A stretch of 64,000 nucleotides of DNA from Acidobacteriota bacterium (lineage in GTDB: Bacteria > Actinomycetota > Acidimicrobiia > Acidimicrobiales > Microtrichaceae), in the NCBI GenBank assembly GCA_003577145.1, contig QEUP01000001.1, positions 62,001-126,000 on the forward strand, given 5' to 3'. Below are positions 40,764-62,659 of this stretch, in pieces. A model generated the notes under the pieces. It was not told where the DNA came from. It did not search any database and was given only the letters and a program-made list of their open reading frames with translations. Each line of letters opens with the position of its first letter. The stretch's first letter is position 1. The position numbers and the translations under genes were made by a program.

Positions 40764-41645
40764 ATGGGGTGGCATCGGGATGAGTTCTGTAGGGCAATGA
40801 CGGCGGTCGCCGATTCGACGCGCGACGTGTACCGGAGAGATCTCGATGCCTTCGTCGGGTGGGCGGAACGGCTGGGGCCGGCCGGGCCTTCCGAGGTCGA
40901 CCGCTTGACGCTGCGTCGCTACCTCGGATACCTGACCACCCGGCGCTACGCGCCCCGCACCATCGCCCGCAAGGCGTCGGCTCTGCGGCGCTACTTCGAT
41001 TGGCTGCGCCGGACGGGTAGGTGCCCCACCGACCCGGCCAGGGGGCTGTCCGCCCCCAAGGGGGAATCACGGCTTCCCCGTGTTCTCCGGGCCGACGAGA
41101 TCACGATCATGCTCGACGAAGGTCACGGGTCGGCGGAGGGCAGCGAGGAAGCCGAGCGCCGCCGCGACGACGCGGTGCTGGAGTTGTTGTACGGCTCCGG
41201 GCTCAGGGTATCGGAGCTGTGCGGGCTGTCGCCCGACGACGTCGACGTATCCCGTCGGCTCGTACGGGTGACCGGCAAGGGTGCACGGCAGCGGATAGTG
41301 CCTCTGAGCGAGGCGGCCGCGGAGGCGGTCGAGCGCTGGTCGAGGGAGCACCGAGGAGTTGTGGCAGGCGAGGAGACGCCGGCCGGAGCCCTCTTCCTCA
41401 ACCGTCGGGGCAAGCGGCTCACGCCGCGAGATGTCAGGCGCATAGTGGACCGCCGAGCCCCCAACCCCACCCATCCGCACGCCTTGCGCCACACCTATGC
41501 AACTCATCTTCTCGATGGTGGTGCCGATCTACGGGTAGTGCAGGAGCTGTTGGGTCACGCCGACCTGGGTACCACCCAGGTCTACACCCACGTCAGCAAC
41601 CGCAGAATGCAAGAGGTCTACCGAGCTAGTCATCCGAGGGCGTAG
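40764..41645 (+). CDS. xerC: tyrosine recombinase XerC
   Basis: A 293-residue tyrosine recombinase. The N-terminal SAM-like core-binding domain contains [21 protein letters not shown]. The catalytic domain has the R-K-H-R-H-Y set: [16 protein letters not shown] (first Arg), [20 protein letters not shown] (His-x-x-Arg), [15 protein letters not shown] (His and Tyr nucleophile). Length and position after dprA fit XerC, which resolves chromosome dimers at dif rather than a phage integrase. An in-frame ATG at 40797 is an alternative start. Confidence 0.92.
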
Positions 41646-41656
41646 TAGGGGCCGAG

Positions 41657-42436
41657 GTGGAGAGAGAACAAGCGGAACTGGAGAGACTCTGGACGCGTTA
41701 CAAGGAGCGGCGGGAGGAATCCGTCCGCGAGCAGCTGATCCTGCACTACTCGCCCCTCGTGAAATACGTCGCCGGTCGGGTCGCCGTCGGGCTACCCCAG
41801 AACGTCGAGCAGGCCGACCTCGTGAGCTATGGCATCTTCGGCCTGATAGACGCCATCGACAAGTTCGAGCCCTCGCGGGGCTACAAGTTCGAGACCTACG
41901 CGATCGCCCGCATCAAAGGGGCCATCCTCGACGAGCTCAGGTCCATCGACTGGGTGCCCCGCTCGGTCAGGGCCAAGGCGCGCTCGCTCGAGAAGGCCTA
42001 CGCCAAGCTCGAAGGCAGGCACCACCGGGCCCCGTCTGACGAGGAGCTGGCCCGGGAGCTGGGCATGAGCGAGGACCAGCTCCAACATACGCTCAGCCAG
42101 ATCTCGTTCGTGGGCCTCGTGGCGCTCGACGAGATGCTCTCGGTCGGCGGAGACCGCGGTGAGACGCTGACGCTCGGCGACACGATCGCCGATGGGGGCG
42201 AGGGGCCGGTGGGGCGATACGAGATGGAGGAGATGCGCCAGACGCTGGCCGAGGCGATAAACCGGATGCCTGAGCGCGAGAAGGTGGTGCTGACCCTCTA
42301 CTACTACGAGAGCCTCACCCTGGCGGAGATCGGAGAGGTTCTGGGGGTGACCGAATCGCGGGTGTGTCAGATCCACACCAAGGCGGTACTGCAGCTGCGT
42401 TCGAGGCTGGCGGCGCTCGAGCGCGAGCCGGTGTGA
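41657..42436 (+). CDS. whiG: FliA/WhiG-family RNA polymerase sigma factor
   Basis: A 259-residue group 3 sigma factor. Region 2 is [77 protein letters not shown]-type text. Region 3 follows ([18 protein letters not shown]), and region 4 holds the helix-turn-helix [24 protein letters not shown]. In Streptomyces the homologue WhiG, at the same place beside the M23/rpsB locus, drives sporulation genes. No flagellar genes are present here. The role in this organism is unknown. Confidence 0.92.
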
Positions 42437-42470
42437 AGCAGGGCGTTCCCGTGCCGGCCCAGGCCCGGTG

Positions 42471-42476
42471 TATGGT
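42471..42476 (+). promoter_or_regulatory. -10 box upstream of the LytM-lipase fusion gene
   Basis: TATGGT about 97 nt before the GTG start; the leader ends in a GGGGG stretch that can serve as ribosome binding site. Confidence 0.35.
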
Positions 42477-42572
42477 TGAACCCGGAGCCTGACAGGCCGT
42501 GCCGGTCCGGCTCCACCGGCTGGCCCGGTGACCCTTCCCCCTCGAATGTGACTCTTTCTGGGGGCGTTTGCC

Positions 42573-44132
42573 GTGCGCCGAACCTCGTTCCTCATCGCTG
42601 CTGCTCTCGTTGTGTCGTCACTGAGTCCGGCCGCCGCTGTCGCGGCCGCCGAGGACGACTACCGGCCACCGACCGATCGACCGGTCCTCGACGGGTTCAG
42701 ACCTCCGCCGCACCCGTACGGGCCGGGGAACCGCGGCATCGAGTACGCGACCTCGCCGGGGGATCCGATCACCGCTATCGGCGCCGGAAAGGTCATCTTC
42801 GCCGGTGAGGTCGCCGGCGCCCTGCACGTGACGGTCCTTCATCCCGACGGGCTGAGGAGCAGCTACTCCTTCCTGCTCCGGATCGCGGTCACGACCGGCC
42901 AGCCGGTCAGAGCCGGAGACCTCCTCGGGGCGGCGGACAGGGGCTTCCACCTCGGTGTCCGTGCCGGCGACGAGTACATCGATCCCGAATCCATCTTCGG
43001 CGGAGCCGGGCACGCCCGGCTGGTTCCTCTGCCCGAGCCGGTGACGCCGGCGAGGGGCGAGGTCGCATCGCTGCTGGCCTTCGCCCGCGGCGAGATGCGG
43101 GGTCTGGGGGTCGGAGTGGCCGACTGGTGGAGAGGGCTCTTCGCGGTCGGAGCGCCGCTGGTCCACCAGCTGGGCGAGCTGGTGCCGGCGGTCCACCTGA
43201 ACCGGCTCGGGAACGAGCTGTGGGACTGGCTCGGCGACCGCGAGACCTGCACGAGCGAGGACCAGCCGGCAACACCCCCGGAGCAGCGGAGGATAGCCGT
43301 GCTGGTCGCCGGCATCGGATCGTCGAGCGAGTCGGCGGCCGTCGACGACATCGACACCGCACAGCTCGGCTACGAGCCAGGTGATGTCGTTCGGTTCAGC
43401 TACCGCGGCGGGGTCGTTCCCGACGGATCCGATGGGATTGCCCTCTCGTCGGTCAACAGCTACGGGCCGGCCGATACCCACGGCGATCTGCGGGAGTCGG
43501 CGCGGCGCCTGGCAGAGCTCGTGAGGGAGATCGCCAGTACGGTTCCGGGCGTTCCGATCGACCTGCTGGCGCACAGCCAGGGAGGGGTCGTGTCTCGGCT
43601 GGCGATCGAAGAGCGAGGTGTCGTACAGGCGATGGGCGGAGGGGTCCTGGTCACCATCGGCGCCCCGCTGCAAGGCGCCGATCTGGCAACCATCGCCGTG
43701 GCATTGCGATCGAGCCGGCGCGGTCGGTCCTTGCTCGCGCTGGTCGAGCGGGCCGGGCTCAGCATCGACCCGGCCTCGCCAGCCGTGAGCCAACTGGCGG
43801 AGACGTCCGACGTGGTGTCTCGGCTCGGTGATCCCCCACCTGAGGGTGTGCGGATGCTCACGATCGGTGCGAGCGGTGACCTCGTCGTCGCCGGACCTCG
43901 CACCCAGGTGGACGGCAGCGACGGCGTCATCGTCGCCTCGAGGGGGCCGGCGGCTCACGGTGAGCTCCCGGCGCACCCCGAGGTGGTCCGTGAGGTGTCG
44001 CTCCTGCTCGCCGGGCGGGCCCCTTCGTGTGAACCGCTGGTGGAGAGGATCACCGAGTGGGCGACAGGGGAGTCGGTGGGCTTGTTCGAAGACACCTTGG
44101 GGCTCGGTCTGGCTGTGGCCATGGGCGTATGA
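42573..44132 (+). CDS. secreted fusion: degenerate LytM (M23) domain plus lipase-like alpha/beta hydrolase
   Basis: A 519-residue protein with a Sec signal peptide (RRTSFLIAAALVVSSLSPAAAVAAAE). Residues ~35-145 read like an M23/LytM fold (YGPGNRGIEYATSPGDPITAIGAGKVIFAGEVAGALHVTVLHPDG), but the zinc motif HxxxD is NRGIE and the H-x-H motif is absent, so peptidase activity is unlikely. From ~235 (IAVLVAGIGSSSES) a second domain shows the alpha/beta-hydrolase nucleophile elbow IDLLAHSQGGVVSRLAIEE, with candidate catalytic serine. In many actinobacteria a plain M23 gene stands before rpsB; here it is fused to an esterase/lipase-like domain. Confidence 0.8.
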   Translation: MRRTSFLIAAALVVSSLSPAAAVAAAEDDYRPPTDRPVLDGFRPPPHPYGPGNRGIEYATSPGDPITAIGAGKVIFAGEVAGALHVTVLHPDGLRSSYSFLLRIAVTTGQPVRAGDLLGAADRGFHLGVRAGDEYIDPESIFGGAGHARLVPLPEPVTPARGEVASLLAFARGEMRGLGVGVADWWRGLFAVGAPLVHQLGELVPAVHLNRLGNELWDWLGDRETCTSEDQPATPPEQRRIAVLVAGIGSSSESAAVDDIDTAQLGYEPGDVVRFSYRGGVVPDGSDGIALSSVNSYGPADTHGDLRESARRLAELVREIASTVPGVPIDLLAHSQGGVVSRLAIEERGVVQAMGGGVLVTIGAPLQGADLATIAVALRSSRRGRSLLALVERAGLSIDPASPAVSQLAETSDVVSRLGDPPPEGVRMLTIGASGDLVVAGPRTQVDGSDGVIVASRGPAAHGELPAHPEVVREVSLLLAGRAPSCEPLVERITEWATGESVGLFEDTLGLGLAVAMGV

Positions 44133-44142
44133 CTTGGCTGAG
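44121..44142 (+). repeat. 22-bp direct repeat, copy 1 (end of the LytM-lipase gene)
   Basis: It contains the last codons and TGA of the fusion gene. A copy with 20 of 22 matches lies 71 bp downstream at 44192-44213. Confidence 0.7.
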
Positions 44143-44191
44143 GTGTTCTGTTGCGGGGTGGCTCGGCGCCCGGCACCGGGTTGGCCCCCGT

Positions 44192-44213
44192 ATGGGCGTA
44201 TGAGTCGGCTGAG
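44192..44213 (+). repeat. 22-bp direct repeat, copy 2 (rpsB upstream region)
   Basis: Partner of 44121-44142. Like the 25-bp repeat at the end of pckG, it duplicates a gene-end segment about 70 bp away. Confidence 0.7.
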
Positions 44214-44255
44214 TGCGTCCTCCGTTGGGCTGGATGGCCGCGGCTGCGGGTCGAC

Positions 44256-44261
44256 TACAAT
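44256..44261 (+). promoter_or_regulatory. -10 box of rpsB
   Basis: TACAAT is the best -10 match in the gap before rpsB and would give a leader of about 116 nt ending in the strong GGGGAGGAG binding site. A leader of this length allows for S2 autoregulation, but no structure was identified. Confidence 0.5.
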
Positions 44262-44384
44262 GCAACCCGGCTCATCCGACAGGTGAGCAAGTTCCAAGGT
44301 CCGCCCGGTTTCGTCCCACGGTCGCCGCGCGCTCGCGGCGCTGAAGCCGGGTTTCGTCTAACCGATGGGGAGGAGCATGAGGCC

Positions 44385-45371
44385 ATGACCGCAGTCGTGA
44401 CCATGAAGCAGTTGCTCGAGGCCGGCGTACATTTCGGGCACCAGACCCGCCGGTGGAATCCGAAGATGAAGAGGTTCATCTACGGCGAGCGAAACGGCAT
44501 CTACATCGTCGACCTCCAGCAGACGCTGCGGAGCATCGAAGAGGCCTACATCTTCGTGAGAGACACCGTGGCCGAGGGTGGCACGGTCCTCTTCGTCGGC
44601 ACCAAGAGGCAGGCACAGGACAGCGTCCAGGGATATGCCGAGAAATGTGGCATGCCGTTCGTCAACCAGCGATGGCTCGGTGGGATGCTCACCAACTTCG
44701 AAACCATCTCCAAGCGCGTCGGGAAGATGAGGGAGTACCAGCGCATGCGCGACTCGGGTGAGTTCGAAGCAATGCCGAAGAAGGAAGCCCTCCACCTCAG
44801 CCGCGAACTCGCCAAGCTCGAGCGCAATCTCGGCGGCATCCAGAACATGGACAAGCTGCCCAGCGCCGTCTTCGTTCTCGACACCAAGAAGGAAGTCATT
44901 GCCGTAACCGAGGCCAACAAGCTCGGCGTTCCCATCATCGCCGTGGTCGACACCAACTGCGATCCCGACCTGGTCCAGTTCGTGATCCCCGGTAACGACG
45001 ACGCGATACGTGCCGGCGACCTCATGGCCAGGATCATCTGCGACGCAGTCGAAGAAGGCAGCTTCATCCGGTCACGGACGACGGGGGACGGTGGTCCCCC
45101 GGTACGTTCTGCGGACGAGGAGGCTGCCAAGGCCGAGCAGCAGGCGCGCGCCCGCCAGGAGGCCGCGGCTCAAGCGGCCGAGCGCGAGCGGCGCGTGGCG
45201 GCCCGGAAGGAAGCTGCAGGACAGGTCACCGCCGCCGACCCCGCGGAGGCCTCCGCGGCGGGTTCTGAGGCCGGCGCCGAGCCTGAGGCAGCAGTGGGTT
45301 CTGAGGCCGGCGCCGAGCCTGAGGCAGCAGCGGGTGCCGGTGCCGTTGGGGAGGAGCCGAGGGATGGCTGA
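44385..45371 (+). CDS. rpsB: 30S ribosomal protein uS2 with repeat-containing C-terminal extension
   Basis: A 328-residue S2. The conserved body covers about 1-235 ([87 protein letters not shown]). A further ~90 residues are rich in A, E and R and include two copies of [20 protein letters not shown] precedes ATG 44385. The stop overlaps tsf by 8 nt. The tail is probably disordered and solvent-exposed on the 30S surface. Confidence 0.96.
45261..45332 (+). repeat. tandem 36-bp repeat in the rpsB tail
   Basis: Two consecutive 36-bp units (45261-45296 and 45297-45332), identical except for at most one base, encode the twelve-residue [11 protein letters not shown](V/A) repeat in the disordered S2 extension. 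Confidence 0.9.
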
Positions 45372-61705: not shown

Positions 61706-62659
61706 ATGGAAGTGATCAGGGACCTGCAGGCCTGTCCGAGGCCGGTCGACGGCACCGCGCTGACCATTGGCGCCTACGACGGCGTTCATCTCGGCCATCG
61801 TGCGGTCATCTCAGCAGTGCGCTCCCACGCCTCCCGACAAGGCACCAAGTCCGCGGTCGTCACCTTCGACCGCCATCCGGCTCAGGTCGTCCGCCCGGAT
61901 TCGGCACCCTTCCTGCTCACCAGCCTCGACCAGAAGTTGGAGCTGCTCGCCTCCACCGGCGTCGACTACACGCTCGTCATCACCTTCAACGAGTCCCGAG
62001 CCAAGGAGCCGCCGGAGGACTTCGTGATGGAGGTCCTCGTCGATTGCATGAACACCCGGCTGGTCGTGGTGGGCCAGGACTTCCATTTCGGTCATCAACG
62101 CCGGGGCAACGTGGCCCTCCTGCGGGAGCTCGGGCAGGCCAACGGCTTCTCCGTCATCGGACACCACCTGGTCGACCGGTTCGGTCATGACGCCCGCGAC
62201 GACACCCTCGTGTCGTCCACGGCGATTCGTCGCGCCCTTCACGATGGTCGGCTGAACGATGCGAACGCCTTGTTGGGTCGGCCGCACGAGATGCGCGGGC
62301 CTGTCGTCCGTGGTGACGGCCGGGGTCGTGAGCTGGGATTCCCCACTGCCAACATCGCCATCGCGCCCGAGATGCTCATGCCGGCCGACGGCATCTATGC
62401 GGGTTGGTACGATCGGCCGGGCGGCGACACCCACCCCGCGGCGATCTACATCGGGACCCGGCCGACCTTCTACGCCAACGAGGAGATGTCGCTTCTCGAG
62501 GCGCACCTGCTGGACTTCGACGGCGACCTGTATGGCGAGATGGCAAGGGTTCACCTGATCGAGCAGTTGCGCGGCGACAAAGCCTTCGACACCGCCGAGG
62601 CGCTTGCTCGCCAGCTCCGGGTGGATTGCGAGGACGCGCGTGTCGTCCTCGGTGCTTGA
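61706..62659 (+). CDS. ribF: bifunctional riboflavin kinase/FAD synthetase
   Basis: A 317-residue enzyme that makes FMN and FAD from riboflavin. The N-terminal FAD synthetase (adenylyltransferase) half has LTIGAYDGVHLGHRAVISAV, TFDRHPAQVVRP, VVGQDFHFGHQRRGN and VSSTAIRRAL. The C-terminal kinase half has VVRGDGRGRELGFPTANIA, IYAGWY, IGTRPTFYANE and EAHLLDFDGDLYGE. The order rbfA-truB-ribF is standard, and rpsO normally follows; here one more gene intervenes. Confidence 0.96.
   Translation: MEVIRDLQACPRPVDGTALTIGAYDGVHLGHRAVISAVRSHASRQGTKSAVVTFDRHPAQVVRPDSAPFLLTSLDQKLELLASTGVDYTLVITFNESRAKEPPEDFVMEVLVDCMNTRLVVVGQDFHFGHQRRGNVALLRELGQANGFSVIGHHLVDRFGHDARDDTLVSSTAIRRALHDGRLNDANALLGRPHEMRGPVVRGDGRGRELGFPTANIAIAPEMLMPADGIYAGWYDRPGGDTHPAAIYIGTRPTFYANEEMSLLEAHLLDFDGDLYGEMARVHLIEQLRGDKAFDTAEALARQLRVDCEDARVVLGA

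Follow-up and report, generated by a model that had tools for sequence, protein, structure and literature searches.

A probable wall-directed serine esterase joined to a degenerate LytM domain, encoded between a whiG-like gene and rpsB in an acidimicrobial genome

Catalytic M23 (LytM) peptidases, LytM, lysostaphin, zoocin A and MepM being examples, have the histidine and the aspartate of an HxxxD motif and the second histidine of an HxH motif as their zinc ligands, and two further histidines, namely the first one of HxH and another some 30 residues ahead of it (H260 of LytM), that activate water. Excerpts of a review (PMC9662197) describe the first histidine of HxH as a proposed water activator rather than a zinc ligand, and state that the histidine preceding HxH may participate in catalysis. 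The open reading frame (ORF) described here, which is located within a 64,000-nucleotide stretch (“the window”; positions 62,001 to 126,000 of contig QEUP01000001.1, assembly GCA_003577145.1), encodes a recognizable M23 domain that shares one zinc-ligand histidine with these peptidases but, unlike them, has the other two zinc ligands and both water-activating histidines changed and an esterase-like domain attached. An incomplete LytM active site is something it has in common with EnvC, NlpD and ActS, from which it differs in having a catalytic domain of its own, no Pfam LysM match and a host genome without an Amidase_3 or Amidase_2 match. The second domain, in turn, resembles secreted bacterial lipases (1cvl/1tah, as well as 5h6g, a “Putative secreted lipase”) in its nucleophile elbow, in the Ser-Asp-His order of its triad and in profile matches with E values of 9e-11 to 1e-9, although in the fusion it stands behind an N-terminal LytM domain instead of standing alone.

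By location, the closest counterparts are the stand-alone LytM proteins encoded next to rpsB in related actinobacteria; they occupy the same locus, belong to the same LytM lineage and have lost the same histidine before HxH, but have no esterase domain and, outside of the order Acidimicrobiales to which the host belongs, mostly keep the zinc trio. These stand-alone proteins presumably include Rv2891 of M. tuberculosis, with the same residues lost. Excerpts of one study (PMC8594824) count it among the three putative M23 genes of that species and suggest, on the basis of a tree, that these may encode active peptidases, and excerpts of another (PMC3916317) list it among genes raised in late stationary phase. 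No LytM-lipase fusion is described by title or abstract among the open-access matches listed, and the available text of the aforementioned review contains no word beginning with “lipase” or “esterase”, which is in line with the preliminary description of this DNA, whose author knew of no described enzyme with such an architecture.

The features of the locus are compiled in Table 1. The host assembly amounts to 4.05 Mb in 68 contigs and is 96.6% complete. The fusion ORF does lie between rpsB and a whiG-like sigma factor gene, as had been claimed, and the secretion that had likewise been claimed is supported by a by-eye reading of the N-terminus as a likely signal peptide. The xerC-like gene, the whiG-like gene and rpsB, as neighbours, say nothing about an envelope function, and a promoter and terminator scan over 42380–44420 found none of either.

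Table 1. Features of the fusion ORF and its surroundings (positions within the window)
Feature	Positions	Strand	Basis or remark
xerC-like tyrosine recombinase	40764–41645	+	Conserved neighbour, before the whiG-like gene
whiG-like sigma factor gene	41657–42436	+	Conserved neighbour, 5' of the fusion ORF
LytM-esterase fusion ORF	42573–44132	+	519 aa, GTG start; single-frame homologous ORFs in relatives
Likely Sec-type signal peptide, residues 1–26	42573–42650	+	By eye: RR, hydrophobic core, AxA-like cleavage region
Degenerate LytM (M23) domain, residues ~35–145	42675–43007	+	Pfam PF01551 at residues 53–122, E 4.2e-12
NRGIE (N53 to E57) instead of HxxxD	42729–42743	+	Two zinc ligands changed
F100 instead of the His ~30 residues before HxH (H260 of LytM)	42870–42872	+	Alignment with own-genome M23 paralogues
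GFH (124–126) at HxH	42942–42950	+	First His lost (G124), second kept (H126)
Variable linker, residues 146–225	43008–43247	+	Alignment
Alpha/beta-hydrolase (lipase-like) domain, residues ~226–500	43248–44072	+	Profile to solved lipases; DUF676
C226, possible disulphide partner	43248–43250	+	C in 32/32 rows with a residue, 14 gaps
S335, putative nucleophile in AHSQGG	43575–43577	+	46/46
D436, putative acid	43878–43880	+	46/46; aligns with D of KYDQVV in 5h6g
H462, putative base	43956–43958	+	45/45 rows with a residue, one row cut short; aligns with H of SEHVAI in 5h6g
C486, possible disulphide partner	44028–44030	+	C in 40/41 rows with a residue, 5 gaps
rpsB (ribosomal protein S2)	44385–45371	+	Conserved neighbour, 3' of the fusion ORF

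The N-terminal half scores 46.5 bits against the Peptidase_M23 model of Pfam, well clear of the curated cut-off of 28.7, and phmmer finds solved M23 enzymes with the whole protein (best E 2.8e-6), while its NCBIfam matches are to LytM-type models, all of them far below cut-off. Six M23 matches are present in the host genome, and an alignment of 101 different sequences of the family with the five own-genome M23 paralogues allowed five active-site residues (the histidine and aspartate of HxxxD, the histidine about 30 residues before HxH and both histidines of HxH) to be compared. All five are intact in each of the five paralogous domains; in the fusion protein four are changed (N53, E57, F100 and G124) and only H126 is retained, so that N53, E57 and H126 stand where catalytic M23 domains have the zinc ligands H, D and H, and both water-activating positions are replaced. 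This supports the inactive look that the preliminary description had attributed to the domain, as well as its reading of NRGIE in place of HxxxD; its statement that HxH is missing holds for the first histidine, whereas the second is kept within “GFHLGVR”.

The degeneracy extends well beyond the host. A histidine at position 100 is seen in 0 of the 101 rows, and the first histidine of HxH in six (L003, L035, L039, L092, L094 and L114), two of which (L092 and L114) are without the second, leaving four rows with both. Asparagine occupies position 53 in 65 of the 66 rows of the order that have a residue there (L090 being the exception; two further rows have none), and the changed motif is thus itself conserved; outside of the order, the zinc trio H-D-H is kept in 29 of 33 rows. 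Taken with the roles given to these histidines in the review, the counts make it seem that this LytM lineage lost its catalytic histidines phylum-wide and that the order to which the host belongs went on to lose a zinc ligand. To regard a plain M23 peptidase as the norm for this locus, as the preliminary description did, is therefore misleading, since in relatives, too, the LytM proteins encoded at xerC-whiG-rpsB are degenerate (the histidine before HxH is absent from 101/101 rows and the first one of HxH from 95/101). LytM-only matches of relatives (those at E 6e-18 or better) are 36–59% identical, which argues that the half is under constraint, and the persistence of stand-alone versions without an esterase in relatives points to some use of its own. 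A group of sequences from other classes (L105–L116) mostly keeps the zinc trio and mostly has no first HxH histidine, the histidine before HxH being absent throughout (example motifs: HRGVD ... YEPV ... CLHWG); the Pfam family would label these as peptidases.

For the C-terminal half, the preliminary description had proposed a lipase-like domain with a serine nucleophile in LLAHSQGGVVS (residues 331–341), and both proposals gain support. A profile of the hydrolase half (A2) matches solved lipases at E 9.3e-11 (1qge_D) and 5h6g at E 1.2e-9 along positions 79–260 of 272, a stretch that spans the serine, the aspartate and the histidine, while the lipase matches of the whole protein in a phmmer search against solved structures are weak. 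An alignment of 46 sequences, made up of the window protein and 45 of 53 other candidates (the remaining eight, all closely related to sequences in the set, were omitted), has S335, D436 and H462 conserved in every row that reaches them, a histidine before the serine in 44/46 rows and two glycines after it in 46/46. Conservation of C226 and C486 further suggests a disulphide. Pfam places DUF676 (putative serine esterase) just above its threshold in the fusion protein (21.8 bits against 20.3), and DUF7379, Tle3, Abhydrolase_8 and PGAP1 below their own cut-offs, the alpha/beta-hydrolase models matching weakly at about residues 300–384, around the nucleophile elbow. A likeness to the DUF676/PGAP1/DUF7379 hydrolases is nonetheless shared by most of the 46 members at E ≤ 0.01 (45, 40 and 43 of them, respectively). 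When six other fused proteins were run against Pfam, all six gave M23, and five gave a model for the hydrolase region with E ≤ 0.001; that of L122 is DUF7379 alone, below its cut-off, and L071 has none.

Structure prediction added little to this, as the single-sequence model of the protein minus its signal peptide (pLDDT 33.5) and a model of the LytM half with L031 (pLDDT 43.7) were both too poor to use. A fold search with the latter returned no match at E ≤ 0.001, and the best 50 of its 261 weak rows include several structures of LytM type (DipM, ShyA, StM23, SpoIIQ and EnvC).

The same architecture was found in Acidimicrobiia and in relatives farther away. Within a locus sample of 101 genomes, selected (mostly best matches plus chosen stretches) rather than random, the fusion is carried by 44 genomes within the order (the host among them), by 3 from other orders of the class and by 12 from other classes. 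Stand-alone LytM proteins account for 24 genomes of the order, 15 of which belong to the host's own family and one of which is the L031 record, and for 18 genomes from other classes. Outside this sample, G084 and G152 of the order also carry the fusion. The fused form is common, rather than unique to the host. Searches with the whole protein gave a match in 51 of 61 genomes, host included, and in 226/296 genomes at the class level and 197/296 at the phylum level, many of them through the LytM half alone. With the C-terminal half as the query, hits at E ≤ 0.001 were obtained in 95 of the 397 genomes belonging to the order, and in 77 of these the E value was no higher than 3.1e-14. In the host's family, 29 of the 32 other genomes match, the matches being confined to the LytM region save for weak C-terminal ones in a single genome (G003), and 3 have no match, which makes the host the sole family member seen with the fusion. 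A genome-contig scan gave one relative only, an uncultured Acidimicrobiales bacterium with an approximately half-identical LytM protein.

Two halves that recur in the same order and in one reading frame across many genomes are not joined by chance, and the recurrence of the joined gene in so many relatives makes the fusion look like a real cell-envelope enzyme design. As for its history, a LytM-half tree made by a quick method from 99 rows (leaving out the five paralogues, duplicates of the window, L010, which is cut short, and L038, which has masked bases) requires at least 10 changes between the fused and stand-alone states, 2 of which are forced by well-supported branches, and fits one fusion with many losses and several fusions alike. 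The fact that the halves are homologous and arranged in the same order favours, however, an ancient fusion from which the esterase was lost repeatedly.

Both domains, the intact triad, the altered LytM active site and the conservation of the fusion can be read directly from the sequences. An intact triad, a likely signal peptide and a LytM half that is conserved but altered make a secreted serine esterase or lipase of the cell envelope, held in place in the wall by a LytM domain that is itself non-catalytic, the best reading, and one that is held to be moderately probable. The fusion protein would be exported by Sec, upon which its C-terminal alpha/beta-hydrolase, possibly closed by a C226–C486 disulphide, would cleave an ester via Ser335-Asp436-His462; the N-terminal LytM domain, presumably no longer hydrolysing peptide bonds, would serve to dock or position the esterase, with either peptidoglycan or a partner protein associated with the wall as the docking site. 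Docking at peptidoglycan itself is the part of this scheme against which the inactive LytM precedents count, since EnvC, NlpD and SpoIIQ bind proteins. The triad might, alternatively, perform acyl transfer instead of hydrolysis, with a wall polymer gaining or losing an acyl group and the acceptor being held by the LytM half: transferases are known among envelope alpha/beta-hydrolases (e.g., mycolyltransferases), and LCAT is matched by 4 of the 46 members at E ≤ 0.01, but the top-scoring relatives of the hydrolase half are lipases and esterases, and transfer is deemed unlikely.

The other rivals concern the LytM half. If it were a vestige, with the esterase alone mattering, the staged loss of active-site residues across the phylum would be accommodated, but a domain this well conserved, which many relatives have without the esterase, renders a vestige decidedly improbable. 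A two-enzyme protein, in which the LytM half, with zinc still bound at its altered N/E/H site, has a changed peptidase activity, would agree with the retention of H126 in most rows, with the zinc trio prevailing outside of the order and with the few rows that have both HxH histidines; it is very unlikely given that both water-acting histidines are absent here, one of them from every row of the family, and that a zinc ligand is asparagine almost throughout the order. The amidase-activator option raised in the preliminary description, here in the form of an EnvC/NlpD-like protein with the hydrolase as a second function, draws on a pattern of residue loss resembling that of degenerate LytM activators, on ActS and NlpD being among the weak NCBIfam matches and on Amidase_3 being common in the order (80 of 148 genomes, 22 fusion genomes among them). 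Searches of the host genome with PF01520 (Amidase_3) and PF01510 (Amidase_2), however, gave no match at E ≤ 0.001 (a miss being possible at its completeness), which weakens this option in the host, and two other fusion genomes (G043 and G054) are without Amidase_3 as well. Amidase_3 matches in the order also include genomes with a stand-alone LytM protein (e.g., G065 and G142), and their spread speaks neither for nor against a link outside of the host genome; all in all, an activator role seems scarcely probable.

A wall-positioned esterase, if true, would mean that most members of a gene family labelled “M23 peptidase” by Pfam and found at a conserved locus of actinobacteria are something other than ordinary peptidases, and that many members carry an unstudied envelope esterase; actinobacteria would then offer an example of a LytM domain that, though inactive, places another enzyme in the wall, and an envelope ester would be indicated, the turnover of which has been retained in more than one class. 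A wider proposal, offered tentatively and with more doubt than belief, is that the rpsB-adjacent actinobacterial LytM proteins constitute one old pseudo-peptidase family whose job is binding and not cutting, and which has in many lineages been fused to a wall-docked, ester-editing serine esterase. The early loss of the water-activating histidines along with the frequent retention of the zinc site would, under this proposal, indicate that binding is the conserved job, and the ester-editing envelope function would be new to the literature as far as the searches show.

The surroundings of the fused gene differ between lineages. Among the other 43 genomes of the order that carry the fusion, 41 have rpsB, whiG or both within the stretch covered, and the gene lies at a contig end in the two that do not (G056 and G370); both are present in all 3 fused genomes of the class outside of the order. 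Among the 12 fused genomes of other classes, both genes are found in 2 and neither within the stretch in 10, nine of which belong to one family (f89) and one (G601) to another (f97), the fused gene of the latter being situated at a contig end. In f89 (L118–L120), the fusion lies away from rpsB and beside a YgjP-like gene in 3 of the 3 genomes scanned, with an amino acid kinase in two of them, a permease in one and an M28 peptidase plus a cyclase-like gene in one; these neighbours are no functional hint.

Individual records deviate in other ways. One genome (G227) has two fused copies (L044 and L130) on different contigs, the fused gene of L010 is cut by a contig end, and a frame change inside the hydrolase half interrupts that of L009 (G043), be it a sequencing error or a real break. 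Distant relatives of the hydrolase domain from the same order (L125–L129; 531–606 aa), three of which (L125, L126 and L129) gave no Pfam match, have it behind a hydrophobic, by eye multi-pass-looking N-terminal half, which again suggests an envelope setting.
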